DNA from: Tetraselmis striata
Lineage: Eukaryota; Chlorophyta; Chlorodendrophyceae; Chlorodendrales; Chlorodendraceae
Direction of reading: 5' to 3'
Assembly (NCBI GenBank): GCA_006384855.1
Contig: VCJN01002426.1
Span: forward strand, 124,001 to 188,000
DNA: 64,000 bases
Position 1 is the stretch's first letter. Each line of letters begins with the position of its first letter. Positions 3,001 through 48,935 of the stretch are shown here, in pieces. Made by a program: the position numbers and the translations under genes. The notes below the pieces were generated by a model, which had not been told where the DNA came from, did no database searches, and saw only the letters and a list, made by a program, of their open reading frames with translations.

Positions 3001-6000
3001 TGCCAACGACTTATTTGTTCCGACATGGGGTGTTGTCTTCTTACTGTCGGTTCAGCGTCGCGATTGGGTGTTCTATGAAGGAAGCGTCGTCTGGTAGTCG
3101 TCATCGCGCGGTGCTACACTTTTCCACAGATCTTTCGCGTCCGTGCACTCGGAGACCCCGACCACCAGCATGAAGGGTCAAGCAACTCTGGACTCGCCCG
3201 TAGTCCTTTTGATCTATAATCCCTGCTACTCTTCGCCATGTAGCTATCTATGGTCGCCATCACTATGGCCGCCCTACTAATCTGCTATCATATTAACATC
3301 TTTCGACAATCATAGTGATACCCTGCTTACACATAAAGCTCCGCATCGAATGGGATAATTACGAAGGGCGGCCTTCAACCATGCTGCATGGAACATAGTC
3401 GCGGTCCTCGCCGGAAGTCCTCTCGTGTCCGCGTGATGTGAGAGCAATATGTCGTAGAAGGAGTGGGAACATGTTTGTCAACGCGCTCGCACGCTGTCAC
3501 CCGCCTCGAGCTAGACTGGCCCCTGTGAGCAGGGGGCAGCAGGCATTCTCTAGCGCGTATCTGGGAGCGGCAGCTATTTTCCGACTTATTTCCGGTGCTA
3601 TTTCTTTCCTGGTGGCGGTGGGCTGATATCCGACCCGACCGGGCGTCCTCGCGCCGCAGGCGCCGGCGTCGCGGTGGCGCGCGGGGCGGCGGGCGCGGCG
3701 CGGGTGGCGCCGGCTCCTCGCGGCGGCCGGAGCCGGAGCTGCCTGCGGAGAGCAGCCGCGGGCGGCAGATCAAGCGGCGGCGGCTGTCGGACGAGGAGGA
3801 GAACAGCGAGGAGGAGCGCCGGCGGAAGCGCAAGGGCAAGCGCGTGCGCACGCAGGCACGCCGGCGCCGTCCCGACTTCCTGTCGTTGCTTTGGGAGGCC
3901 CGGCCGATGCTGACGACGTGGCGGGTGGCGGGTTGCAGGAGGAGAAGGACAAAAAGAAGAAGAAGAAGAAGGCTAATAGGAAGGACAAGCAGCCGCGAGG
4001 CAGTACGCGCGCGGGCGGCGACGAAATCGAGGAGAGCCTTGCTGCCCGCAATTTGGAGTGCTACGCATGGCTGCAGGTGCGACCCCCCTTCTCCGGTCCG
4101 CGTGCCCGTGCCCGTTTCTGTCGACTGCTTTTCTGGGCACACGTCTGCGCGCAGCGGATCCTGCATCGTCGCGGGTCGTTTTTTTTTAACTCGCTTGTAA
4201 TAAGAAATATATACATAATTATATCGAATGAATTCGTCATCATTAGGTTCAAGAAGGACTTTAAAGGGGCAATAACACCATTCAAAAGCCCTGAATCTGC
4301 CCAGCGCAGCAAGCCGCTCTCTGAGGCATGCATGGTCGGCGCAGGCCTTGGAGCCGGGCATCCCCACCAGCCAGTACGTGCCCCAGGAGGGGGACGAGGT
4401 GGTGTACCTCAAGGTGCGCACCGCCCGGCCGCCTGCCGCTGACGCGCAGCGCCCTGACAAGCCCAAGCACGGCTGACCGCCTCTGGATAGCACAGTGCTC
4501 GAGCGCCCGCTGAGCGGGCACCCTGTGCTGCACCCGCAGGAGCAGCAAAAGACGCTGCTGAGCCTCACATCCGACAAGCTGACCAAAGCGGCATGGCAGC
4601 AGCTGAAGGTCAGCTACGACGCACTGCGGCAGGCGGAGAAGTGCAGGTGCGCGGCGGGCGGAGGCGGGGGAGGGCGCAGCGGGGCGGGGTGGGGCATTTA
4701 CAGGGAGTATCAGGGCCTGCTGGGTCCCGCCTGCAGGCGGAGACCCATGCAGGCAGCCGGTGCATCAGCCGGGATCCTGCCCGACTTCGGCGACCCTCCC
4801 CCCTCCCCCCGCCCCCCTTTGATCCCGCTTTCCCCTCTCACAGGGTGACCGGCCTGGAGTATTTCATCCATGCCAGCACCAGGGAAACCGGTGTGCGCTG
4901 CACGCTCGCGTTTGAGGTGCTGGGCAGCCGCAGCGTCACGGTGGAGCTGCTGCCGCCAGATGTAAGCCCGCTGAGCCCTTTCCCATAGGGTGCAGGGTAG
5001 ACACGCATGCATACAGGTATAGACATGCATTCATGTGTCCTGATCGATGGCCGGCTGCGCCTGGCGTGTGCCTCTGGCGGCGTAGAAGGAGGATGCCACC
5101 GTGCAGTTTCTGGTCCCCATCGAGCGCTTTGTGAACGCGACCTCCCGCCCCTGGAGGGCTGGCGACAAGTGCCAGGTGACCCCCCCCCCCCCCCCACACA
5201 CCCCCGCAGACACACTTTGCTCTTTTCCTTTTGCTGCGCTGCTGCATGCAACCACCGACGGCGGTAGCGCTCTCCTGAACCTGCCCCGAAGCAATTGAAG
5301 AACATATGGGCTGACCCCCCCCCCCCCCCCCCCCTTTCCTTTCCCGTTATCCCGGGTAGATCTTTTTTGTAGACGAGGGGCTGTGGCGGGCGGAGATCGT
5401 GAGGGATGCGGGCTACGAGACCGCGCAGGAGGCGGGCACGCTGCAGGAGGAGATGCTGCCCTGGGACGGCGTGCCGCTGGTGCAGCGCTATAAGGTACTG
5501 GCGCCAGTGCTGGGGCAGCCATCATGCCTGGAGTCGGCTTGGACCCCCCCCCCCCCCCCCGCCCCCTCCTCCCCCCCCCCCGCCCCGACCCACACACACC
5601 CATGAGGCTGCTGCCTGTGAGAACATCCCCCCCACCCTTGCTTACACGACCAGGTGGCCTGGGCAGTGGGCGATGGCGGCTCCTTTGACTACGGGTTGCT
5701 AGATCTGGTGGATCCCTGGGAGATACTGGAGGTGACCCCCCCCCTCTTGAATACGCCCCCCTAATCAGTACGCTTCCGATTATCAGCCGTATCCATTGTC
5801 ATCTACGACTATGCAAGTACGGATAACCGTATCACACGAGTTGTTTGCAATAGTATTATGCATCATCTGGCGCTCGGAGGGCCCGCATGCTCCGGGCTAC
5901 GGCCGGCCCTGTGCAGGTTTACGCAGCCGAGCCGTGGGACAGCCGGCCTGTGTAGTCGGGAGACTGGCGGGAACAAAGTTGCAACAAGTTTCCGAATTTC

Positions 6001-33200: not shown

Positions 33201-33690
33201 ACCGACTCAAGTCGGCCCGCTCAACGAAGCTATAAGCGACATCTGCAGGCAACGGCGGGACTCGCAAAGGGGCAGCCTCCATGCGGCGTTGACTAAGCAG
33301 CATGCCACGACGCGCGGCCGTGAGGTGCATGCATGCTATCCTTAGCGATGGAGTCGATGTTGTGCAACTCGAAGACGGTGTTGATTGCTAACATGATGTA
33401 AAATTGTTAAGACCTAGCCCCAATGTGGCCCCGCTTACAAATCCAAAAGACGTGGCAGTGGTCGCCTCCATCGGGATGGTGTTCTCGGAGTCGTGGCAAT
33501 AAAACTCCGCGAACTGAGACAGCGTGCTGGGCGGCGTAGCTCTTGATGGGCGTTTGGGCAGGGAGGGAGCTGGAGAGTAGGTCGAGGGCCCGTTGTCCCA
33601 ACTCATCGTCTGAACCGAACGCTTCCGACCTGTAGACGGGACTGGCGGAGTGAAGCAACCCATGGGGCGGCAGCTTCGGGCTCGTCAATT
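32400..33690 (-). mobile_element. Tyrosine-recombinase retroelement fossil (DIRS-like), broken
   Basis: Minus-strand remains of a tyrosine recombinase. An N-terminal SAM-like part (QRALDLLSSSL region, 33.4-33.69 kb) is followed by catalytic-domain pieces (about 32.6-33.3 kb), with a G run of about 36 bases between them. The family is the recombinase type carried by DIRS retrotransposons, which are common in volvocine algae; a Crypton is the alternative. The element is clearly broken in several places, and I see no reverse transcriptase next to it. A related fossil lies at 55358-55860. Age: old, judging by decay. Confidence 0.65.
33162..33197. repeat. Poly(G) run
   Basis: About 36 consecutive G inside the recombinase fossil. 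One of the longest of some twenty poly(G)/poly(C) runs in the window. Confidence 0.95.
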
Positions 33691-34224
33691 ACGTAAGTAC
33701 GACCCTTGGCCGACGGACTAATAACACGGGCCGGTTGATTTCAGCAAAGTACTCGGCCGCGGCGGTTAGCTAGGTTGCCGGCGGCGGCGGTTGGTCGGTA
33801 ATTGTTGGGCGGGTTAGTCAGAGCACCAATACGGGTTTGCGGGGCAAGTTTAGGTAGGAGGGCCGCCCCGCGCGCCCGTCGCGCTCGTAGCGCCTGCCCC
33901 GCCGTGCGTAACACACTATACACGAGCGAAAGATGGTCGTTGCGAACCACTTGTAACACGTCGTGTAACAACCGACGTACGCGGTGATGCGATGGTACGG
34001 GAGGCGGATCGTTGAGCCGCCATGTGCATGTGTTCGGATGGTTGAGCCACACTCGGCCGTGGCTATAGTAAGAAGCGCCGCACCGAACGTTAAAATGAAG
34101 TCAATAGGTTGGGGCGGGGGGGGGGGGGGGGGGGGGTCCGGTCACATTATGGCGCTCATCCCGCCGTTACTGAGCTGCCATGGTTCGTTGTAGTGCGGCG
34201 GTCACCGAAAGGTGACCTCACAAA

Positions 34225-34246
34225 CACTGTGAGATTCAGATGTGAC
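34225..34246 (+). repeat. Left terminal inverted repeat of the CACTA element
   Basis: 22 bp starting CACTGTGAG, an exact complement of 41438-41459. Preceded by the target duplicate AAA (34222-34224). Confidence 0.9.
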
Positions 34247-34475
34247 GTAAATGTGCCCTACTGGTGACGAACGACGACATACGGGGACGATACGGGACGG
34301 ACGAGGGACGTGGATTTCATACCCAGTAGCGACGACTATCGCGCGCGACCTGTAAAGTACTATATGAATTTCTCGTTTCCATAATTTCATCAAATTGATA
34401 TGCGCACGCGGGCTCGCGTGTCGCCCGCCGACGCGGAGCACCCGGGCTAAGTACAGGCGGATGTACGCACTCATT

Positions 34476-34556
34476 GCACATCGCCGCACATCGCTGACCG
34501 CACATCGCTGACCGCTGACCCCGCGGTGTGCCGCGATGTGCGGCACGACGGGCGGA
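34476..34556. repeat. Subterminal repeats and palindrome of the CACTA element
   Basis: Direct repeats of CGCACATCGCTGACC followed by their near complement (CCGCGATGTGCGG). Arrays of short repeats inside the TIRs are typical transposase-binding regions of CACTA elements. Confidence 0.55.
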
Positions 34557-34833
34557 GGTGTGGGCGGATGTAGGTGGTACGGTAGGTGGTAGGCGGTAGG
34601 TGGTGTTCGTAGGTGCGCGTTTTAATGCAGCCGCCCTAACTGCTGATGATTGTGTAACGCCCCAGCACGCGCATGAAGTACGGGGTCGCCTCACGGTCAC
34701 CGCCGCTCACCGTTGAATCAAGCGCGGACAGCCGCGCACTCGCATCTGTGTTGCCTGCCGGTGGTGGGTTACATCCATCCCAACTCTCAACCCCCCCCCC
34801 CCCCCGCCCCGCCCCCCGCGCGCGGCAGCAAGC

Positions 34834-36270
34834 ATGCCGGCAAAGGGATGGATAGCGAGTGTGTCGAAGGATGGCGTGTACACATGCAAGCACTGCCACG
34901 GCATCGTGACGGGTAGTAGTGAAAGGACGGCGCGAGAGCGGCACTTCCTAAAATTCCCGAACTGTAGCCACTCGTTGAAGCGTGCGGCTAAGTTGCGCCG
35001 CAAGGCCGCCTTATCACAAGCAGCAGCAGCAGGGGCGGCAGCAGCAGCAGCAGCAGCAACAGCAGCAACAAGCGCGGCAGCAGGAGTAGCTGCAGCCGTC
35101 GGAAACGGCCCGCCGGCGCCGGTCTCGGACGACGGCGGCTCGAAGGTGGACGATGTGATGGGCGTGGGGGAGGACCCCGTTGGCGAAGACGGTATGGACA
35201 TCGACGCGCCTGCGTGGCCGCCGGCGGGCGTCGAACCCGCGATGAGGGCGTGATATGGAAAGGCGATCCCGGCGACTTCTACATGAAGGTCATCGCCAAG
35301 AAGTTCCGGGGAGTATGGCACTACGGCGTGATAACCGGCGTCGTTACCGAGTGGGTGTTGGAGGACTACGGCGGGGCGACCCAGTGGCGCGCTGTTTTCG
35401 AGGACGGTGACATTGTGGACCTTCTGCGTTCAGAGGTGAGTGGGCCCGGCCTGCGTGCTGGTGGCACCACTCAACTGCGGTTGTATGGAATCACACGCAC
35501 CCGCCCGGTCGGCGTGGCAGGTTGTGGAGGCTATGGCGGCTGCCCAGGAGCACCCCCCTGTGGATGCGGACGGGGAGGCTCGCTTGGTAACCGTCCATCA
35601 AGGCGATGACTTGTCCAGTGAATCACGCACCTTGCCCGGCGTGCGTTCAACACAACCCGGCTGCCATGGCGTGTGCCATGTGCATGTGGTCCTGGGCTAT
35701 GTCAGCATGATCAACCTCTTCCCCCTCGCGCCGTTCCACCTGTTTTTTTTTGGCTTGGGAAGGGACTTCTGGAGGAAATTTGTCACCGTGCAGGGCCACA
35801 TTGGATTCCGAGCTATGAAGCAGGAAGACCGGCGCCAGGCTTTAGTCCCGATACCCAGCAACTTTGAACGCGGGTTGCGCCCTTCGTTTGCAGTGTCCAA
35901 GAATCGAAAGGTAACCCCCCCCCCCCCCCCCCCCCCCGGGCGTGGGCGTGGGCGTGACGGCATTCCCCTCCATGACTGCAGGGTCAGGCAAGGTGACGGT
36001 GCAGTCCGGCTGGGTCATGGAGGACTGCTTGCACCACATGGAAACGTTTTCCATTCTTAACGCCGGTCCGCTGCTCGAGGAGGCCCGGGTGAAGGCGATC
36101 ATGACCGAGAAGGAGCTTCGCGTCCCCAGGCGGTGCTTGGGCACATGTACAAGCGCATGCAAGGAGCTGCGTGGTTCGTCACGCGGTGGGGGTTGCAGAA
36201 TGTGGTGACGGAGGAGGACGGCCCCGAGCGCAAGGCGCAGGTGGACGCGCTCACTAGGGAGGGGAGGACT
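34834..36270 (+). CDS. CACTA-borne ORF: BED-type zinc finger plus Tudor-like domain
   Basis: Candidate element-encoded protein. The first ATG is at 34834. Exon A (34834-35145) gives a BED-like zinc finger (CKHC, then an H-x5-C in ERHFLKFPNC), followed by an Ala-rich stretch. Exon B (35247-35435) follows in phase after a 101-base intron and has a Tudor/PTM-like core (KKFRGVWHYGVITGV, then WRAVFEDGDIVDLL) with a good GTGAGT donor. Exon C is about 35521-35586. Further coding-like stretches at 35763-35911 (FRAMKQEDRR) and 35983-36130 (WVMEDCLHHMETF) could not be joined in phase with confidence. BED fingers are common DNA-binding parts of transposases. The Tudor-like part could be cargo from a host gene. 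Catalytic residues were not located. Confidence 0.45.
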
Positions 36271-36280
36271 CGATACCCAG

Positions 36281-36411
36281 CGCGGCGCCAAGGCGCGGCG
36301 GCCGGGGCAGCGCGGCGCCAAGGCGCGGCGGCCGGGGCAGCGCGGCGCCAAGGCGCGGCGGCCGGGGCAGCGCGGCGCCAAGGCGCGGCGGCCGGGGCAG
36401 CGCGGCGCCAA
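36281..36411. repeat. 30-bp minisatellite, 4.4 copies
   Basis: Unit CGCGGCGCCAAGGCGCGGCG plus ten bases, repeated from 36281, 36311, 36341, 36371 and 36401 (partial), practically identical. The unit length is a multiple of three, so an open + frame reads RRQGAAAGA repeats. Confidence 0.95.
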
Positions 36412-37017
36412 GACAGCGCATACAGCGGAATCGGCGGAAAGGGATGCATTACAAGCTGTGGACGGCAGCCGCTGAAAACTATGCGGTCATGCCGCAACAA
36501 CCCCAGCACTGGCTTCTGGATACCTCTGATCTGGCTGACGGCGGCAGGCTGCGGGATGCAGGGCCGCATGATTGAGGTGGCGGTGCTGGTTTGCCCGCAG
36601 AGTCTGCATGCGGCGGAGGCGGCGCAGCCGCATAGGCACTAGACAATGCTCTGAAGCGAGCCCCAATTGTCTGCCCAGCGCCTGCCCCAATGTAACGCAC
36701 CAGCTTGGCAGCAATTGGCAGCTCTTTTGCCCCCCCTCCACCCCACAGACACACTACCAATACCAGTTTCTCATCCCGGCGGGCAGTTGATGCGTATACC
36801 CAGGCTTGTGCGTACGCGGTGCGGGGGGGGGGGGGGGGGGGGGGATCACTATAGCTAAGCTAGTGATGTGAGATATGAGTGCAGCAACAGATATTGTGCA
36901 AGATATAATACGATGGCATGCAAGCGGGTCCCCGCTCTTCCACAATCATTGGCCCTGCTCCCTCTTGCCCCGCCCCCGGTGCCCTTTAGCTGCTCTCAGC
37001 ATCCCGAGTGGGATGGG

Positions 37018-37323
37018 CGGGGCAGCGGTTGCTACCGAGTGAGGCGTAGCATCGTTTGCAGTAGCAACGCAGCCTTTCCGGTGTGACGCCGCCTGGATGT
37101 AACCCAGCAGTACGCGCAAAGTGCAAGTGCAAGCTGCTGATGGCGGGGATCCCGCGCGGGGGGGGGGGGGGGGGGGGGGGGGGAGGCAGCGGCTGTGGGA
37201 TAGGCGCGGCAGCGGTTGCTACAGAGTGAGGCGTCGCATCGTTTGCAGTAGCAACGCAGCCTTTCCGGTTGCATAGTGTGACGCAGCCTGGATGTAACCC
37301 AGCAGTACGCGCAAAGTGCAAGT
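37018..37323. repeat. Direct repeat pair of about 115 bp around a G run
   Basis: The block from GGGCAGCGGTTGCTAC to CGCGCAAAGTGCAAGTG occurs at about 37018-37131 and again at about 37206-37323, with small differences. A run of some 26 G (37158-37183) lies between them. Confidence 0.85.
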
Positions 37324-37366
37324 GTTACACGTCCGTGTGCCCCACCCAATGACATTGCGCCCGACC

Positions 37367-37996
37367 TCACTGACGGCATGTCTCGCTCTCCTTCAGCTCC
37401 TGGGCCGTCCGCCGCCTCACCCTGCGCACCCTACCAGCCGCGCGTGCCTTCTCGGAAGCCTCACACACGGCGGCGCGAGTCGCGTCGTGGAACGCGTCCC
37501 TGACATGGCGGAACTCCGCCCTCTTCGTGGCCGTGGTCGGGCAGGGGACTGCCCGCTGATGGGTCGCCATGCATGGGTACTTGGGGCCGCACAAAGCCGG
37601 GGTGCCGTCGCAGCAACACTCCCAGTCCGTCCGTTGGCCGCAGTCCACGCATGACGGGCGTCCGGCCAGGACACGCACATGATAGTGCATGTGGCCGCCT
37701 CCCGCCACTGCTCGTAGTGCTCCGGTCAACATGGCGACGAGCAAGTCGGCATGTCCCGCAGGTGGCTGCGGGGCGGGTGGCGCGAGCGCAGCCTCGCTCG
37801 CCTCGACAACCCCCTCAGCCCGATCAGTCGCCTCGACCACGGCCTCCTCCGCCTCCTGACGCGGCGCACCAGGCGCATCATCGTCGTCTGGCAGGGCGTC
37901 CCCCCCCGCAACGGCGCCGTCGGCGGTGGCCGACGCCGTCGTGGCGGGGTGTTGTGAGGAGGTGGCCCTAGACATAGGTGGGGCCGGCACCGCCAT
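37367..37996 (-). CDS. CACTA-borne Cys-rich ORF
   Basis: 209-residue open frame on the - strand from the ATG at 37996. It starts with an Ala/Glu/Asp-rich low-complexity part (DALPDDDDAPGAP). A compact Cys/His cluster near residues 115-145 follows: CVDC, then WECCC, ALCG, PCMATH, and a further C. It ends in a basic tail (RVRRVRRRTAQEL). The cluster resembles the Cys-rich C-terminal zinc-binding domains of some DDE transposases, for instance the piggyBac class. Upstream exons to about 38.25 kb are possible. It is antisense-oriented to the BED ORF, so the element may have two outward- or inward-facing genes. No firm family assignment. Confidence 0.4.
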   Translation of the reverse strand: MAVPAPPMSRATSSQHPATTASATADGAVAGGDALPDDDDAPGAPRQEAEEAVVEATDRAEGVVEASEAALAPPAPQPPAGHADLLVAMLTGALRAVAGGGHMHYHVRVLAGRPSCVDCGQRTDWECCCDGTPALCGPKYPCMATHQRAVPCPTTATKRAEFRHVRDAFHDATRAAVCEASEKARAAGRVRRVRRRTAQELKESETCRQ

Positions 37997-38956
37997 GTGT
38001 TGCTCCACATGCGGTGCGGTTCCTGACGCGACAGCTCCGTCGCACCAGTACCGGCGCCGGCACCCCACGCACGCCTGCTGGGCTTACCACCAACCGGCAT
38101 GTTTCCTTTGGGAGGCGGTTCATCCGCGTCGGAGGTGAGCGGCGGTGCCTGTGTGGGTGTGGATACTGCCCGGCCATTAGGGCTCCCGCCGCCTGTCGCT
38201 CCGCCGACCCACGCCGCGGCGTGTGCTGCGCCCCGCATAGTCGCCTCGAATATAATATACATGACGCGGGGACGGGGGGGGGGATTCGTGCGTTTCGTAT
38301 GTCGGCGGAAAGGCGTGCGAAGCTGCGGCTGGCGAAGGTGGTGGAAGGAAGCGTGGCGGCGTCGGCGGCGTATTACCGTGCGTGCATGCGTGCGCAACCC
38401 CGCGGCAGCAAGCGCCGGACTCGGCGTGTGCCAGCGGCAGAGCTGCGAAGCCATGGACACGGTACGGGATGCCAAGTCTGGCTAAGCAACTGCCGAGGCT
38501 GGCGGCTTAACCCCCATGTCCGGCGGTTGAGGGACGGAAAGTGCGTAGAAGTTGATCGGGAAAGCGGGCATATAAGCCTGGCTGTGCTAGGTTCCTATTA
38601 AGTAATGGCGGTTTGTGCTAAGTAATTCGTAGGGGTAGACCATGCAGCGCAGGTAGGGGGCGGTATAAATGAGGCCGGGCACATATACTGCTCCACGAAA
38701 CGACACTGTCGCACGTGTGGTTGAATATACGCCCCCCCCCCCCCCCCCCCTCCCCGCCGGGTCGGCCCGCCGACCCGCCACGGCATGTAATATTTGTCAT
38801 GCATCGCCGGGGTATGTGTGAGTGGATGCCCCGCCGCCACATCCCCCCCCCCCCATTTACACTTGTGCACTCATTAAGTTTGGGCTGGTTTCGGAGCAGT
38901 ACATGTACGTATGTATATACATACAATGGAACGTAGGACCTGCGCGGAAAGAGGCG

Positions 38957-39750
38957 GGGCTGGCGGAGTGCGTTGGGGGTGCGTAGAGTAGCGTGTTGGT
39001 GAGATTCGGGGTGCATCGGACGCCGGATGCCCATCCACCCAGCGTAAAAGACGCCTACGTAATATTCACACTATATATATTCACACGCAAATGTGTGAAA
39101 ACCGGACATTCCGTGCCGGATGGGTGGGAATACGGCGTCCGATGCAGCCAAAACCCCAGCAACACGCTATTCTGTGCACCGCCAATGCACTCCGCCAGCA
39201 CCGCCACATTCTCTGTCGATTTCGAAAACGCCTTCACATTATCCACCGCTAATTGCAATTGCCACCGTGTAATGTTGTCACGATGTGCGCACACAACAAC
39301 ACTTACTACCGGTTCCGACGCGGATGGAGGCGAGGCTTGCGGAGTGCGTTGGAGGTGCGTAGAGTAGCGTGCTGCAAATAATTGGGGTGCATCGGACGCC
39401 GGATGCCCATCCACCCGGCGTAAAAGACGCGTAATATTCACACTGCTTTATTAACACACAAATGTGTGAAAACCGGACATTCCGTGCCGGATGGGTGGGA
39501 ATACGGCGTCCGATGCAGCCAAAACCCCAGCAACACGCTATTCTATGCACCGCCAATGCACTCCGCCAGCACCGCCTCATTCTCTGTCGATTTCGAAAAC
39601 GCCTTCACATTATCCACCGCTAATAATTGCAATTGCCACCGTGTAATGTTGTCACGATGTGCGCACACAACAACACTTACTACCGGTTCCGACGCGGATG
39701 GAGGCGAGGCTTGCGGAGTGCACTTGCGGTGCACAGACTAGCGGGAGACT
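38957..39750. repeat. Tandem array of hairpin-forming units, period about 375 bp
   Basis: Two full units and one partial (starts near 38960, 39336 and 39710), nearly identical. Each unit is itself an inverted repeat. The left arm (GGCGGAGTGCGTTGG to GGACGCCGGATGCCCATCC) pairs imperfectly over about 95 bases with the right arm about 100 bases further on (GGATGGGTGGGAATACGG to GCACTCCGCC). A spacer unit of about 130 bp separates the hairpins. No coding potential. It lies inside the CACTA element. Confidence 0.85.
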
Positions 39751-39842
39751 AGACCCATTGTCGCTTATTTACAAGCACGGGCGGTGGTGCCAGACCTGAT
39801 CGTCTACGGCCGATATAATATTCACACTATATTAACATCGGT

Positions 39843-39895
39843 GCACACCGCCGCACACCGCCGCACACCGCCGCACACCGCCGCACAACGCTGCG
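39843..39895. repeat. Short tandem repeat GCACACCGCC
   Basis: About five copies of a 10-bp unit CGCACACCGC, degenerating at the right end. Confidence 0.85.
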
Positions 39896-40024
39896 CGCGC
39901 ACATTCGTCGCACACATTATCCCGGATTCACTCGCCGTATCCATTACGCCGTGCTACTTCAACAATAAACATTGCGAAATTACACCGACACAATGCCGCA
40001 CCGACTAGCTCTTGACAATACGTG

Positions 40025-40035
40025 TATATAAATAG
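40025..40035 (+). promoter_or_regulatory. TATA box candidate inside the CACTA element
   Basis: TATATAAATAG, a strong TATA-box match, 129 bases before the ATG at 40164. It suggests a + strand transcription start near 40055-40065 within the element. Confidence 0.5.
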
Positions 40036-40163
40036 TAGTGGCGCGCTGCTCCTCGCCTCCGATGTGTCGTTGACTGCTGCGGAAGGCGGTCGTCGACTGG
40101 GTGTTAGTTTCTCCACCTCGGCCGCCCCCCCCCCCCCCCCCCCCCTTCACCGCTCACAGCGCC

Positions 40164-40451
40164 ATGGCAGACCTCGCCCCCCGGGCAAAAGTGGGCGGCG
40201 AGCCTTGTTGTCTCGCGTGTCCGCGCCGCCGGCATCGAGAAGGACGAGAAAGACATGAGGAAACGCGTGACAAGGTGGGCGCGCAACAAAACACTCCATC
40301 CTCCGCATTAGCACGCACCCACTCGTGGCTAACTTGTGCCGCGCGCAGGTTCGTCCGGGAGCGCCGTAAGGCCCACCTCAACGCCAAGGCTTCCACAGTG
40401 CCAGCGGCGCAACTCGTGGTGGCCGAGGAGGCCGCATCCTCAGCCGCTTAA
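40164..40451 (+). CDS. Small ORF of the CACTA element, 95 residues
   Basis: Single open frame from the first ATG after the TATA candidate. It has a Cys pair (CCLAC), a very charged Arg/Glu/His stretch (RRRHREGRERHEETRDK) and a second basic helix (RFVRERRKAHLNAKA). Not recognised. It may be a small DNA-binding accessory protein of the element or part of a spliced product with 40524-40739. Confidence 0.35.
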   Translation: MADLAPRAKVGGEPCCLACPRRRHREGRERHEETRDKVGAQQNTPSSALARTHSWLTCAARRFVRERRKAHLNAKASTVPAAQLVVAEEAASSAA

Positions 40452-40523
40452 AGGCGAAACGATTGTGGCTTGTTGTGGGTGTCTGGGCACAGGGGGCGTC
40501 CCGACGCGAAGGTAAGGAAGCTC

Positions 40524-40739
40524 ATGGCGGCGTCGTCGACGGCACAGCCTCCCGGGGTGGTGAAGACACTGACGGATGACAAGAAGCGGAAGAGGCCAGT
40601 GAAGAAACGCCGAGGTAAGAAACTGACGGTTGCGGAGTCGGAGGCGCAGGCGGAGGCGGAGGCGGAGGCGGAGGCGGAGGCAGCGAGATCGTCGAAGCGG
40701 AGGGTCCCCCGGGCACGCAAGAACAAGAACAAGCAGTAG
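40524..40739 (+). CDS. Small Lys/Arg-rich ORF of the CACTA element, 71 residues
   Basis: From the ATG at 40524. Lys/Arg clusters (DDKKRKRPVKKRRGKK) resemble a nuclear localisation signal. An (AE)n run from a GGCGGA repeat follows, then a basic end (RARKNKNKQ). Not recognised. It may be a 3' exon of the same transcript as 40164-40451. Confidence 0.3.
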   Translation: MAASSTAQPPGVVKTLTDDKKRKRPVKKRRGKKLTVAESEAQAEAEAEAEAEAARSSKRRVPRARKNKNKQ

Positions 40740-41157
40740 CCCCCGCCCCCTTACCCCCCCCCCCCCCCCCCCCGCCAGGCGGGAGCGGCTGGCGGCGAGG
40801 GGGGGCGGGGGGGGGCGGGGCGGGCGTGGTCCCCCCGCCCCCGCACCCCCCCCCCCCCCGCGGGCCACATTCCCCGATGGCAGCTGTCGCGAATATTGTA
40901 ATTCAAACATTCTTCGGCAGACCGCTGCCTGCCCCCGCCCTCCCCCTCGCGAATATTTATGTAACGTGAGCACTCTTTGGCAAAACATGGCAGCCAAACC
41001 GCCCATCTGATGACCTTTGATCGGACGGCTGGCAGGCCCGTTCAGCAGTACTAGCTATAATGTACACAAAATTCCCCAGTGTTCCCGAATAGTACGGCTG
41101 AGATTTGCGCTCCCATGTACTAATAGTCGTAGTTATCCACAGGACCACTCGTGATCG

Positions 41158-41240
41158 TGCCCGGGTACCGGGTACCGGGTACTAGATACCCGGTACCGGC
41201 GTAATAAATATATCGCGTACTACCCGGTACTACACGGACA
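41158..41240. repeat. Palindromic GGGTACC repeats near the right end of the CACTA element
   Basis: Three direct GGGTACC units run into TAGATACCCGGTACCGG, forming a perfect small cruciform, with further CCCGGTACT copies after it. Position and form suit subterminal transposase-binding repeats. Confidence 0.6.
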
Positions 41241-41437
41241 ACCTTGTACCTTGTACGTCAGTGCCATGTACGCTTCACCGGGCTGGTACGACTACCAGAA
41301 TGATGACAAAAAGGATTTATCGCCCGCCGGCAATAACGCCGGATGTACTCGCACGTAACTGGATGGACGTGCCGCCACCAGCAGCAGCCTTCACGGATAA
41401 ATAATAGTCGCTAGTAGTAGTGCTTCGTCACCTGTAT

Positions 41438-41459
41438 GTCACATCTGAATCTCACAGTG
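41438..41459 (-). repeat. Right terminal inverted repeat of the CACTA element
   Basis: 22 bp ending CTCACAGTG, an exact complement of the left end. Followed by the target duplicate AAA (41460-41462). Confidence 0.9.
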
Positions 41460-41649
41460 AAAGCAGCAGCAAGTCCGACGAAAGGCGCCCCACGACGTCA
41501 CTCATGCTCACCTTCGCGGCCACGCCCGCGACCGCCGCCACGTCCACGTCCACGCCCGCGTCAAGCGAGCACCGCCGCCACCTGACGAGCAATAGCGGTA
41601 GCTTTCATGCTAATGGCGACCGTCGCATCGAAGACACGACGCAGGAAAT

Positions 41650-41785
41650 TTAACTATGTCTTTTCGTGTTGCACACGAACGGGCGCAGCGACGGGTGAAC
41701 TAGTAACCCGTACCATTTCATAGCACATGTAGCCGGAAAAGTGGATAGGAAAGGAAAAAACTCCATAATCTAGCTAGTTTCGATC
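41650..41785. repeat. Dispersed repeat related to 32255-32412
   Basis: See the entry at 32255. This copy lies just outside the right end of the CACTA element. Confidence 0.65.
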
Positions 41786-41973
41786 TGCCATAAATCTTCT
41801 CCAATAATTGCGTACATGTACCTTGTAGGTTGCATTATACGCTTACGATAAACGCTTCTATCGCTATATACATATAAACCGTATTTATCGTCAATCGGGT
41901 AAGGATAATAAAGGTAGTAGCGACTACTAGTCGTACCCTATTAGTCGGTGGACGGGACATAATTCCTATTATT

Positions 41974-42921
41974 GTGCGTGTGTCTGTCTTTAAAACCTGT
42001 GTACTGCCGGTTTTAACTTACGGGTGTGAAGTATGGGGCATGGATAGAACTAGCGGCGCAAATAAATTACTACAAACCGTTCTCAATCAGTGCTTGCGGT
42101 GCCTCATTGGGGTGGGTAAAAACGCCCATAGGGTGGCCACTGCACCGATGATGCGGGAATTGGATATCGCGCCCACAGAGGCTTATACAGCCGCTACGGC
42201 ACGGGCTCGGGCGTTCCTTAAAGCATCCGACTTGAATACATGTATAACCCATTTAGTAGATCAGCCAAGTCGGGCGCGCCCTAACACGTGGACGTCGGGG
42301 ACTGTGCGGTGGTTATATCGACTAGCTAGGGCGAACGTAGGGCTAGCGGAGGGGGCGCACCTTCCACTTGATGAGTGGAAGTCACTAGCCGCGTGCGATG
42401 CCGTTAAACTAGTAAAGGCATCGGTGTGGGCGCGTTACGAATCGCCGGCGTCGTTAGCACGCACTAAAACCCGGGGTATATATGTCAAGGCGTCTTGTAT
42501 GTCAAACCCGCTGCCGCCAGAGTACGGTGCGTGTGGGTGTCCCCGAGGGGGTTGTGGCCGGGCTGCACAATATGATACAATCACGCACCCGAGAATTTCC
42601 CACTGCTTGCCGATTGGCCCGGATTCATGTCATGCATGAGCGGTTCTTGGAACACTGCCATGCATATGTGGCGGAGCTGAATCTGAGACTATCGAACATA
42701 TGTTACTTAACTCCCTTTATTTTGGGCGGGGTCCCCCCTCCCTTCACGGCGCCCTTGATTTCACTGGGAATGGGACAATTTTCCAGCTAATAAGGCATCG
42801 GGCCCTCCCTCACATTGCCTTCTTTGTTGCACATGTATTGCACTCCCGAAATGCTTTGCTCCGCGGGTTGGGGCTTGCCCCAACTCGCATTACTCGAATG
42901 GGCCGACGCCCAAACGGGTAG
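41974..42921 (+). mobile_element. LINE (non-LTR) 3' end, 5'-truncated
   Basis: Carries the thumb region after the LINE reverse transcriptase (VFKTCVLPVLTYGCEVWG, then QCLRCLIGV) and the C-terminal zinc knuckle (CICGGAESETIEHMLLN). It ends at a stop at 42921. The palm domain and everything 5' are absent, so this is a typical 5'-truncated insertion. The frame is open to about 42.5 kb, then shifts, and the knuckle is read in another frame, so it is inactive. No poly(A) tail is obvious. It resembles the LINEs of Chlamydomonas-type algae; the clade cannot be fixed from the fragment. Confidence 0.8.
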
Positions 42922-43279: not shown

Positions 43280-46200
43280 CAACATTCAAGAAATCCATAC
43301 AAATGTCCAAAAGGAAATCCCTAATCCTTCCTTGTGTGAATTACAAAACGGGCAGTAAGAAATCCACCTCCAAAAAGCGGCCCGCATCCCGCACGAGGCC
43401 CTAGTGGCGTGAAATACAAAACGGGCAGTAACAAATCCACCTACTACTGCTAAAAGCAGTACTAAAAGATCAACACAGCAAGCCGCGTAAAGGCGCGGCC
43501 CGCATCCCGGACGAGTCCGGGCCACGCGTGCACGTGTGTGCGAGGGTGATCCCCGGACGTGCTCTGCAGCTTCGGCAACGTGATGGTGGACGAATCTGCG
43601 CCGTCTGATGAAGCAGCGAGCACGCTCTCGAGCCGCCACCAAGCTCAGGACCCAAAGGAAGTATCTTGCGAGTAAGGCCTCATGGTGAGCCCGGGTGGTG
43701 CACCAAGTGCCCGGCGATGAAAGGGCACCCCGATCCGCAGCCATGCGACACCGCGCACTGTGCGGCGCACCCCTTTGCTCACCTCACCCACTGTGCCGAA
43801 AACCTTGCCCGTGTTCTCCGACATATCTAGGATGTCTCGAAGAGGGCCCTTTTGTCCGGGCTCCGTGTTGTGCCACGCCGCATCCCGCACTGCCAACCCC
43901 CGTTGTATGTCGCCCAAGAGGGAGCGTTCAAACCGATCCACGGCCGTGCGGTGGCCCCGGGCACCGCAATGTACTTGACCATATACCGCATATAGTCTCG
44001 AACTCCAGCTGCAACGTGAACTTCAAGCTCCGGGGATCATAGCTCCCGGTCACGACGTTGAACGCCGGAAGGGATTGGTCTGCGTCCGGCACCATGTCCT
44101 TGAGTTCATCCATGGGTACGGTGTTGCCGAGAGGCACTGCCTGTTGGAACAAGTAGTCGTCCACCTCCCGGCGTAAAGCGATACCTAGGTCGTGAGCAAA
44201 ATGATCGCGGAAGGCGTCTTCGATAGCGTCGTGTTGTACACGCCAGTGGGCGTCTCCAGGTGCCGAGAGCTTCATGAGCGCGTCGCGGTATAGGTCAATA
44301 GTGACGGGATTGTGCTCTGTCGAGGGCAGACGAATGATCGGGCTACTGAATAACCACCGGGGCCGAGCACGGGCTAGATAGAAAGAAGTATCCGGCAACG
44401 ACCTCCCGCAGCTCATGCGGAACGGAGTCATGACCGTCCGCGCGGTGGGGATGGCCACCATCCAACTGCCCGACGCCGCATCGAGCTGGTTGAACAAAAT
44501 CCGTTCCCTACATGTGACAAGGAGAGCGCACACCTCATTTCGAAGCCGAGAGTTGTTGGCCTGCTATAGAAATGGCGTCAGCTCCTTTTGCGAGCCCGAT
44601 GCAACCTCAGCTTCCCGCTCCGTCACAAGCGCATCTGCATCGCTGAGTTGGCCGGATGTAGCCGCTTGGAGGCGGCCCCACGTCTCGCGCATCGCCGCGG
44701 TGTAGCTGGCCGACCCACGAGCATCGTTGAGGAAGTGGTGATACCGGCGAGGGCGGAAGAAGTTGCGTTGAAGCTGCATCGGCCAAGTACGGACCCAAGC
44801 TGTGGGTCAAAGAAACCATGGGTGGGGTGTTGGTGTCGGAGTTCCTAATGGGGAACCTTGAGAGGATGTCATTCATGCAGCCGATAAAGGCGGCATCACG
44901 AACGGTAGCCATGCGGCGGATGCCAGCGCCCGTATTCAACCGAGTGGGGAGGTGAAGCCTGTTGCGCGCCATGGTTACTGCATCCTCGCTCAATGTAGCC
45001 ACCTATGTTGCCATGGGGCCGGGGTCGTGCCAAAACTCCGCCAGAAATCGGTGACCAACGGGATTGGTGTCGTTGCCGTACGTGGAGGGGTCAAAAGAGA
45101 CCCATAGCACCCGCTCGACCGCTGCGAGGACTGTGGCATCCAGGCACCGCCTCCGCAAAGGCCTCCACCTCGGACGGGAGCGGAGCCAATATCCCGCCTT
45201 GTGTTATTGCATGAATTGCGTGAGCATGGCCCATGCGTGGTGATGCAGGGCGTGGGTGTGCCGACGGCGGGGTTTGGCAGATAGGAGCTTGCTCAGGCTG
45301 GCGTAGTCCACCTCCTCTCGTAGCTCCTCCGCCTTGCACGCGCATGTACGCATGCACATACTCTGACGATCCGAGCGGCACGTTGAGGAACTTGAAATCG
45401 ATTTACAACATGCTGACTTGCTGCTCTCCACTGCCCAAGCCGAGTTGCTTTAAGGACCTGCTTTATCCAACCGTTGTGGGAACCCTAGGGATTACGGATG
45501 CACCTTGCGGCCTTCCTCCTTGTCGCCCGCGTCCCTCCTCCTTCCATTCCGCTTGGTATTGTCCCCCCCCGCCGTGGCGGGGGTGTCGTGTACGGTGGTC
45601 TGCGGAAGCGTGTATGTAAGTTAACGGTGGGTGTGCGTGCTCCGGGGTTTGTGGGAGGTACTTGGGTTGGACATGACAAGTTTGAGGGGCTCTCGGGATA
45701 TGCGGAGGAGAGTATGTAGCCATCCGACTGTGTGTCGTTGGAGTTTCCTACAGAGGCGGATTGCAGCGGCGCTGGGAGGCGGAGGGGGTTTGTCCGGGGG
45801 TTGCTTCTTGGGGCGGAGGACCATGAGGCTATGAATGGCTTCTAGTGCGAGTTTGTGCATGGTGCCGCTGCGGCTGAGGGTGACGGGGGTGATTTCAATC
45901 GGACCCTGCCAGCCTTGTTGACGCACGGCGCTCACCGTGTGTTGGTATTTTTCGCGGATGAGAGCGTGCACGGTGGCATGATTGAGATCGGTACAATATT
46001 TGAATTCGATTATCAGTATTTTTTGGACTGCTCTAGGATCGGTGTTGGGGGACATGGTTTCGGTGGCCGGGTCCCAGCCGAATCCGACGATGCGTACTGC
46101 GTCCGGCTTGCAGTGTTTAGGGCGGAGGTGAGGGGGCACGTTGAGGACCGGGATGCCGTGGTGGCCATCTAGCTCGGGCCACTCGATGTCGGCCGGAGCC

Positions 46201-47690
46201 TCACGCCGCGCGGCCTCCATGTCTGCAATGTACGCGTGCATCTTGTCGAAGCGCACCTTAAGCCCCACGGACGCCGTGATGGGCATGCGGAAGGCGTGAA
46301 GGGCCGGCCAAACGTGCTCCGGGAAGACCACGAAATATCCATCGTCGGCGTTGAAGCGCGCCGCCCCGTCTATGACCTCCAACGTGCTTTCACGTTGCTG
46401 CACCTTGGGGTGAATCGCGACGCAGAAGAAAGTCGTGGCCAACGGCGCGCCATGTTGCACGCCGCCCTCCGACCGCAGAGGGGCGGACCGATCGTCCACG
46501 ACCAGATACGAATACGGGAGAGGGAAGCCAAGAGCGTAGGGATGACAAGGTGTAGTGGAGAGCAATTGATGTGGCATTGGATCATGGCGAGGCGCCACGC
46601 CTCGTTGTAAGCGTTGCGAAAGTCGGTGTGGGCGATGACGGCACGTGGGCCAAGCTTCTCTGCGATGAGGCGGACGCCGTAGATGAGCATAGAGTCGCCC
46701 GCGGAAATGCCAATGCCGAGCTGAGATTAAGCAAGCACCGACACATACGCCTCCTTCATGTTGTCTACCACCGCCCGCTCCGCTACGCGCCGCGCTCCGC
46801 CTCCCCGACCGCCACTGACATGCCGCACGTCCGGGGCCCCGCCCTCGCCTAGCTTCTTGACAGGGGCCACGAGCTTAGCAAAGGCGAAGAGCCGGTTGAA
46901 CCACCCGGGCATGCGACCTTGAAAGTACATTGAGGCGACCTATGACATGTCGCGGACCGCCGCAGGCCCCGACGCCGGGGCGTATTCGCTCACCAAGCAG
47001 CGGAGATACTCGTTGCGCATGCCTGAGGGCCCCGCCGCCACGTGCTGCTTGAGTTGTTGGCACGGCACGCGCATGTCCACCGCCGTCAACCGGAATGTCA
47101 TACGCGGCGTCTAGGATCGGGTGGCTACGTGACGGGTGCTTGTCGCGCAGCTGGGCGAGGATAGCATGATCGGATAGGTCGCCAATACCCTACCTTAGAA
47201 GATCGTCGGCCAGCCGCTCGGGAGAGCTCTCCGACCTCCACCAACGCCACGACAGTGTCCGTGGTGCCCACGAGTAGCGCCGCAAAATAAGAGGTCAACG
47301 TCCGTTTGACGCTAGCGGGCATGTCCGGCGTAGAGCGCCTCAGTGCGCGCGTCGTCCCATGAGCGCACGAGTTCGGTCATGCGTCGCTCAGCGAATGCGC
47401 GGAATCGCCACGCCAAGGCTTGTTGCCGCCGCCGCCCGACTCGGTTAGGGGCCCTGCGCAACAATTGCGGCAACATGTACTTCCACTTCAACGCCCTATC
47501 CAACACCACGGGGTCATTGGGCTCCGCCGCCGCCACCACCCGCTCATTCACGCAGCGTTGTGCCTCCGCCCACACTTCTTGAAAGTCGGTAGGCACCGCC
47601 GTCTCCATGGACATCTCCGCCGACATGTGCACCATGTCCACGTCGGAGAGTTGGTCCACCGCACGAGGCCCTACTGGTACTAGTACTTGT
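43280..47690 (-). mobile_element. Reverse-transcriptase retroelement fossil A, broken
   Basis: Minus-strand remains spread over 4.4 kb. An N-terminal region with a basic RRAPNRVGRRRQ-type segment lies at 47.3-47.7 kb. Reverse transcriptase pieces lie at 45.6-46.7 kb: a TDFRNAYN motif, a GGVQHGAPL motif and an ADD-type catalytic motif. A C-terminal part (LPTRLNTGAGIRR region) lies at 44.6-45.0 kb, and a terminal domain at 43.4-44.5 kb. The class is uncertain (an algal/protist RT family, not typical LTR pol). It is broken in many places and is an old copy. Its 3' part is repeated in inverted orientation by fossil B. Confidence 0.6.
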
Positions 47691-48935
47691 TTATCGGGCC
47701 GCTTTTCGGCGGCTTGTTGGGTTGATCTTTTTATACTGCTGTTACCGGTACATGTAGCGTCGCTGGGCGGTGGATTTGTTAATGGCCGTTTTGTGATACC
47801 ATGTACACACCAGCCGGGTACTTCTTTCTGCCTAGCCTGTGCTTGGCTACGGTGGTTGGGAACCATATCATTCTGCCCTCAACAGAGCACAACCCCCTCA
47901 CTGGTGACCTATACGGCGACGCGCTCATGAAGCTCCCGGCGCCTGGAGACGCTCACTGGCGTGTACATCACGACGCTATCGCAGACGCCTTCCGCGATCG
48001 TTGTGTTCACGACCTAGGTGTCGTTGTACGGCGGGAGGTGGATGACTTGTTCCAACAGGCAGTGCCTCTCGGCAACACCGTACCTAGGGATGAACTCAAG
48101 GAAATGGTGCCGGACGCAGACCTCTCCCTTCCGGCGTTCAACGTCGTGACCCGGAGCTATGATCCCCGGAGCTTGTAGTCCATGCTGATGGAGTTCAAGA
48201 CTATGCGGTACGGGGTAAAGTACACTGCGGTGCCCCGGGCCACGGCTGTGGATCGGTTTGAACGCTCCCTCTTGGGCGACATACAACGGGGGTTGGCAGC
48301 GCGGGATGCGGCGTGGCACAACAAGGAGCCCGGACAAAAGGGCCCTCTTCGAGACATCCTGGATATGTCGGAGTACACGGGCATGGTCTTCGGCACAGTC
48401 GGTGAAGTCAGCAAGGGGGCGCGCCGCACAATGCGCGGTGTCGCATGCTTGTCTGCGGATCGGGGACGGTGCCCTTTCATCGCGGGGCACTCGGTGCACC
48501 ACCCGGGCTCACTAGGAGGCCTTGCTCGCAAGAGATTTCCTCGGGGTCCTGAGCTTGGTGGCCGCTCGAGAGCGCGCTCGTTGCCTCATCAGACGGCGCA
48601 GATTCGTCCGCCTTCCCGTTGACGCTGCACAGCACGTCCGAGGATCACCCACACACACACGTGCACGCGTGGCCCGGACTCTGAACCGTGTGCGCATCAC
48701 TCATCCATCCCGCCTCATGCGGGATGCGGGCCGCTTTTAGGCGGCTTGCTGTGTTGAATTTATAGTACTACTTTTTGTAGTAGGTGGATTTGTTACTGCC
48801 CTTTCATGGTTGCTGTTAGTTCTGTTGTAGTGCGTTTTTGTGAAAGCCCTGATGTAATTTAACATTTGTTACTGCCCTTTTTTGTAATACACACCAGTAC
48901 AGTACTTGTAAATGGCCTTTTTGTAATTCACACCA
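47690..48935 (+). mobile_element. Reverse-transcriptase retroelement fossil B, 3' part
   Basis: Plus-strand copy of the terminal domain also found on the - strand at 43.4-44.5 kb (shared HNPLTGDLYGDALMK and ERSLLGDIQRG stretches). It keeps the same 3' tail, in which ATTTGTTACTGCCC-type units repeat several times (48780-48930; complement at 43330-43440). The two copies form an inverted pair about 3.4 kb apart. Only the 3' third is present, and it is broken. Confidence 0.65.

Follow-up and report, generated by a model that had tools for sequence, protein, structure and literature searches.

The DNA analysed here is a 64,000-nucleotide stretch of the green alga Tetraselmis striata (assembly GCA_006384855.1, contig VCJN01002426.1, positions 124,001–188,000), hereafter the window; coordinates are window positions unless a sampled locus (L) or contig (C) of the same genome is named. 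It contains a 7,235-bp element at 34225–41459 (+ strand, the 5′ end being set by the start of a transposase-gene remnant), a predicted non-autonomous member of a CACTG-ended transposon family. The element is bounded by a perfect 22-bp terminal inverted repeat, with CACTGTGAGATTCAGATGTGAC at 34225–34246 (+) and the exact reverse complement of CACTGTGAGATTCAGATGTGAC at 41438–41459 (−), both located by direct reading, by script and by a genome pattern search. Copies of a 3-bp target site duplication, AAA, lie at 34222–34224 (left) and 41460–41462 (right), as established by direct reading and flank comparison. An earlier note on this DNA had described a 22-bp perfect inverted repeat starting with CACTG and abutted by AAA on both sides, and direct reading and a script confirmed it at exactly these bases. 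Past the 22 perfect bases the inverted repeat is imperfect, with agreement at 7 of the next 11 positions, and the 22-bp sequence occurs at these two sites only within the window.

Across the 224,097,584-base genome, the 22-bp repeat is matched exactly at 1,868 sites, 994 of them forward and 874 reverse, compared with none in either orientation for a reversed-pattern control, which excludes chance as the source of the terminal repeat. Allowing up to three mismatches gave 1,250 forward and 1,143 reverse matches (control again 0 and 0), and an alternative pattern, in which the next base of the end differs, was found at 7 places, all in the same family. Where the inner sequence was compared, 65 of 66 ends (two being the window copy's own) match the 5′ or 3′ end of the window element over at least 229 bp. 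The remaining end (L023, C22:145612) is an exact 3′-type end followed by just 41 bp of family sequence, and could represent either a broken end or a derivative of very small size. Many other copies with the same termini were thus found, with edges at the same bases in those examined; neither an absence of such copies nor displaced edges, the two outcomes named in the earlier note as counting against its prediction, was observed.

Target site duplications were assessed in 19 elements with both flanks known (the window copy, eight whole copies, eight two-end copies and two long elements on C142). A perfect 3-bp duplication flanks 15 of the 19, against 0.3 expected, and flank identity at other lengths was seen in 1/19 (2 bp), 0/19 (4 bp) and 0/19 (5 bp), the last being the duplication length of Transib elements, which also have CAC ends. 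These counts, in particular 15 at 3 bp and none at 4 bp, support the prediction of a CACTA-type element with exact edges and a 3-bp duplication. The duplicated triplets are varied (AAA, GAA, GGA, GTA, TAG, AGG, TTC, GAG, CCG and others). For the 15 duplicated elements the flanks were joined so as to leave a single copy of the duplication and were set against two sequences, the window element and a divergent element termed eA (see below); three of the 15 align through the junction in this empty-site check, of a kind proposed in the earlier note. Two of these empty-site matches (C51 and L047) lie inside other members of the same family, with small differences near the junction, and the third (L044) falls in a repeat of another kind, to which it aligns at about 89% identity. 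A further family member (L062, C342) is inserted in another member at element position 4180, as judged from one flank.

The first 100 of the 1,868 end positions include at least 60 that form 30 inward-facing pairs (picked by eye), of which 28 are spaced at 6.1–8.9 kb and two at 13.0 and 13.9 kb (median 8,069 bp). If all exact ends pair at the median size, the family would comprise about 934 elements and 7.5 Mb, or 3.4% of the genome. Eight whole copies (L043–L050; 6,870–8,624 bp) are broadly collinear with the window element, with an internal deletion of element positions 975–1649 in L044 and a divergent stretch near the 3′ end of L050. Together with the window copy they are pairwise 97.4–99.5% identical (mean 98.4%, gaps ignored) and look young. 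The sampled copies are mostly of a short, defective form. The 13.0-kb element (L053/L054, C142:88885–101914) was considered as an autonomous candidate and rejected, being a window-type copy with a 4.4-kb insertion; this insertion contains about three head-to-tail units of about 1.52 kb, with frames recurring every 1,521 bp.

Several pieces of the transposase gene (gene 1) remain in the window copy. The gene opens with a Cys/His, zinc-finger-like N-terminus followed by an Ala-rich linker and ending in a frameshift (34834–35253, +), and continues with a 63-amino-acid, possibly Tudor-like segment ending in FEDGDIVDLLRSE (35247–35435, +), for which neither a fold search nor a PDB sequence search gave support. 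Structure models of these two N-terminal pieces, predicted from single sequences (predicted local distance difference test scores of 74 and 76), yielded no significant fold match (best E-values 0.37 and 0.096), and for this reason 'zinc finger' and 'Tudor-like' are used here as motif-level names. Protein comparison identified two remnants of the transposase core. The first (35659–35910, +) corresponds to residues 132–215 of a core piece from locus L068, at 80% amino acid identity, with the Asp of its PLAPDH motif replaced by Phe. The second (35981–36276, +) is made up of 35981–36127 (78% amino acid identity to L068) and 36133–36276 (96%), and stops before the Glu region. The D2/C(2)C part and the E part of the L068 core have no match in the window copy. 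Because gene 1 is both internally deleted and frameshifted, the window copy is, as judged from its sequence, non-autonomous; the element had been called complete-looking, which holds for its exact ends and fails for its transposase gene.

These defects are widely shared. The gene-1 frameshift, which precedes the possible Tudor-like segment, is present in 27 of the 32 determinable sources (35 asked, window included), the frame being intact at this site in L002, L051 (eA), L056, L062 and L065. Among 24 distinct loci covering the PDH position, Phe is found in 21 and Asp in three (L067–L069); one of the Phe loci, L053, also reads Arg in an overlapping match. Among the matches listed for short-form loci (contigs paired by eye), the distance between the 5′ end and the start of the retained piece is 1,334–1,360 bp in 16 of 17 and 1,250 bp in one, and this uniform start points to one founding deletion behind the short form.

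Longer versions of gene 1 occur elsewhere in the genome. A protein search with the part of gene 1 specific to eA returned 150 matches (150 scored of 347 candidates) at 60 to 100% identity, many free of internal stops, and a search with the core, for which 150 of 1,305 candidates were scored, gave 152 matches. In L068 and L069 the core is present as two open pieces separated by a gap of about 80 bp, taken here as a putative intron. Three blocks were recognised in these two loci: a D2/C(2)C stretch, TWVCDAQGRRK...RGCPWC (D.....GCPWC); a middle block, NTGCHGVCQVPVVLGYVSMVNLFPLAPDHLC..GLGKDFW (CHGV..PDH...KDFW); and an end block, SNLHSAVC...GHPLAELWMENLMGFLK (LH...WMENLMGFLK). Read by eye, their order would be that of the D2, C(2)C, H(3)C and E motifs in DDE enzymes of the CMC type, following the definitions in PMC12730594; the alignment to these definitions was likewise made by eye. 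Contigs C8 and C279 each carry an exact family 5′ end and, 3.5 and 4.0 kb downstream of it in the same orientation, a longer core piece. The earlier note had remarked that the gene content of the window element does not resemble the TNPD/TNPA pair; this odd content is explained by the internal deletion together with other genes and not by a family-wide lack of transposase, since relatives carry one.

The divergent element eA (C142:117723–131576, L051/L052) is complete at 13.9 kb, with both ends and a CCG/CCG duplication, and is 90–97% identical to the window copy in the larger shared parts. Segments of eA that are absent from the window copy include further gene 1 sequence and, on the reverse strand, a gene 2 that adjoins a 59-bp stretch retained in the window copy at 39752–39810 (−); by alignment, this remnant lies in eA at the stop codon of gene 2 and just downstream of it, the window copy having no gene 2 coding region. 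In the divergent copies gene 2 is multi-exon (L051:1856–3420, +) and contains QITHIDGQAPNLHAILAYT and SDTTHRGPVG, an HxD...H layout when read by eye, and it could encode a 2-oxoglutarate/Fe(II) dioxygenase; neither Pfam nor PDB gave a match of gene 2 to a dioxygenase, and eight eA frames had nothing above the curated cut-off of Pfam. A genome comparison with the gene 2 stretch, in which 40 of 309 candidates were scored, yielded 46 matching pieces; apart from eA itself, the long pieces have 90–95% DNA identity. L065 (C2227) has gene 2 and lacks the gene 3 region; between eA and L065 the first exon of gene 2 (69 codons) differs by one synonymous change, and three later exons differ in about 11–14% of codons. 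As an autonomous candidate eA was also rejected, being a divergent copy with a nested CACTA-like element. This nested element (eA positions 113 to about 4963; about 4.85 kb) has the ends CACTAGGCTCCCAG.../CACTAGCCTCCCAG..., is flanked by a 2-bp GA, or by a 3-bp GAC if one base is shared, and contains reverse-strand frames including YDDGDSEEL; L044 sits in a relative of it.

The remainder of the window element holds several other frames and repeats. A 30-bp tandem array of 4.5 units (36278–36412) is located where the transposase similarity ends, and its unit number differs between copies. Gene 3 is a putative coding frame, Cys-rich and open (37367–38083, −), of 238 amino acids in the window, L043, L044 and L045. 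At 38943–39743 the repeat scan shows a repeat of about 376-bp period in two copies that overlap slightly and are 92% alike, and a predicted small open frame rich in Lys and Arg is found near the 3′ end (40452–40739, +). Pfam searches of ten window frames gave nothing above the curated cut-off and no transposase match, and an Rfam search of 33500–42200 gave no matches. Beyond the element, at 43513–48761, the window contains retroelement pieces in both orientations, related at 87–92% DNA identity to L063, in which a 1,152-amino-acid reverse-transcriptase-like frame is open beside just 1.6 kb of family sequence. An inverted 20-mer beginning with CACTG pairs 44135 with 48064 and may mislead searches for CACTA ends.

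The ends, the duplication and the motif order (by eye) fit a family of the CACTA/EnSpm type. Shared with CACTA/EnSpm (CMC) elements, whose defining features are given in PMC4158355 and PMC12730594, are the CACT-type ends and the 3-bp duplications; in the transposase of the relatives, a putative C(2)C motif between the second Asp and the Glu can be read by eye. The family differs in having CACTG in place of CACTA at its ends, transposase pieces that fall outside the Pfam models, zinc-finger-like and possible Tudor-like N-terminal segments, H(3)C for H(3–4)H, and several extra frames with no recognisable TNPA; among these extra frames, those tested for a second protein of the TNPA/ORF2 type have no recognisable relative. 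No description of this family was found in the open-licence literature searched, and the suggestion of the earlier note that the family is new is plausible because no Pfam model matches the transposase pieces, the family being plausibly new by name and of a known kind. Short subterminal repeats are a further feature of CACTA/EnSpm elements. In the window copy candidate arrays of this kind were located by repeat scan, two of period 14 in the 5′ 400 bp (34484–34604) and one of period 7 in the 3′ 400 bp, with little shared between the ends; those at the 5′ end may act as transposase sites.

Two other groups of elements invite comparison. As described in PMC12477816, the brown alga Ectocarpus has large EnSpm and KDZ elements with accessory genes, an often pseudogenised transposase and presumed mobilisation in trans, which make up 1.1% and 1.8% of the genome, carry nested insertions of other elements and generally exceed 10 kb. 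The family described here resembles them in being big and in having accessory genes, broken transposase and nested insertions, and differs in its median of about 8 kb and its estimated 3% of the genome, the comparison being by description only. Fungal EnSpm and Plavaka elements bearing a TET/JBP dioxygenase have CAC..GTG ends and 3-bp duplications (PMC12730594). EnSpm-like ends, 3-bp duplications and, by eye, the HxD...H of gene 2 in the relatives are shared with them, whereas here a dioxygenase has no Pfam or PDB support and the window copy has lost gene 2.

Very probably the window element is a CACTA/EnSpm-type DNA transposon that is mobilised by cut and paste and is non-autonomous, having arisen by deletion and depending on related elements for its movement in trans. 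The ancestral element would have carried a large transposase gene, with a zinc finger, a possible Tudor-like segment and a CMC-type core, together with extra genes; internal deletions and the D-to-F change would then have given rise to a defective form in which both ends were preserved. Transposase supplied in trans by related elements would recognise the 22-bp ends common to the family, probably together with subterminal sequence, excise the element and insert it at a staggered cut, giving the 3-bp duplications. We infer that the relatives are active and that they move the defective form in trans. Maize dSpm-type defective elements are likewise internal deletion derivatives with intact ends that are moved in trans; the window element is comparable as a deletion derivative with intact ends, and differs in that its movement in trans is deduced and that one deletion form appears to dominate the sample.

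Several observations weigh against this interpretation. Four of the 19 elements lack a perfect duplication, with a one-base difference in L043 and L029/L030 and differences of two or three bases in L027/L028 and L033/L034. Phe at the PDH position is also found in the older, divergent L056, L062 and L065 and is thus not special to the young form, and codon-position counts, which are few, show no third-position excess overall and no clear purifying selection. As regards the enzyme, the H(3–4)H motif reads H(3)C in L068/L069, the first catalytic Asp (D1) falls upstream of the sequence obtained for L067–L069, and in one of these three transposase loci, L067, a stop interrupts the C(2)C motif and the frame breaks nearby. 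The link between ends and enzyme is drawn from C8 and C279, each with a 5′ end and a core piece, and from eA, with both ends and part of the gene. Up to an E-value of 10, the two transposase pieces of L068 find no match among the Pfam models, and the CACTA membership of the enzyme is consequently argued from motifs read by eye; comparison of the transposase core, gene 2 and the possible Tudor-like piece with PDB sequences gave nothing significant, with one match at an E-value of 0.049. Profile searches of the genome with PF02992 (Transposase_21) and PF18758 (KDZ) gave no match and 0 candidates, respectively, which means little alone because neither profile matched in the control genomes. With RVT_1 as a positive control there were 150 matches from 3,001 candidates, indicating that the profile search works on this genome.

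High identity between copies in a genome of 2,903 contigs might suggest that the paired ends are an assembly artefact or a segmental duplication, but 19 elements with differing flanks have the same edges, 15 of these carry the duplication and three have empty sites, leaving such an origin with next to no probability. That the window element is instead autonomous, its remaining frames encoding an unrecognised transposase, is extremely unlikely. The rather uniform copy length (28 of 30 pairs at 6.1–8.9 kb), the same layout in eight whole copies and the presence of several frames without known function, such as gene 3 and the small 3′ frame, would suit it; however, gene 1 of the window has a frameshift, a lost Asp and no Glu region and is a shortened form of a frame that is longer and open at other loci, none of the tested window frames matches a transposase and the codon-position counts look neutral.

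Placement in another superfamily with short duplications, of the PIF/Harbinger or KDZ type, also appears very unlikely. PIF/Harbinger elements likewise make 3-bp duplications, according to PMC12730594, and no Pfam CACTA model matches the family, but the ends here are CACTG..CAGTG and the target triplets are varied, not the TNA given for Harbinger in PMC12477816. Kyakuja and Zisupton (KDZ) elements make duplications of 7 and 8 bp (PMC12730594), compared with 3 bp here, and the transposase motifs, as read by eye, stand in the order expected of CMC enzymes. Within the preferred CACTA/EnSpm-type reading, a bolder proposal is rather unlikely to hold in full: that the family is a distinct CMC lineage, with a transposase outside Pfam, an N-terminal zinc finger and chromatin-reader-like segment, an H(3)C site, a dioxygenase-like gene 2 with a possible role against silencing, of the kind suggested for TET-bearing transposons of fungi, and one defective form whose recent spread has brought it to a few percent of the genome.

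What began as a hint in raw sequence is now a defined family whose ends are exact and for which a count is available; a defective form is recognised, and the same genome holds candidate partners that bear a transposase. The family is also a target for annotation, as unmasked copies would pass as genes, and the escape of its transposase pieces from Pfam means that similar elements may be overlooked in other genomes. If movement in trans is true, T. striata would offer a natural system of two components in which to study how a DNA transposon, once crippled, can overtake its parent.

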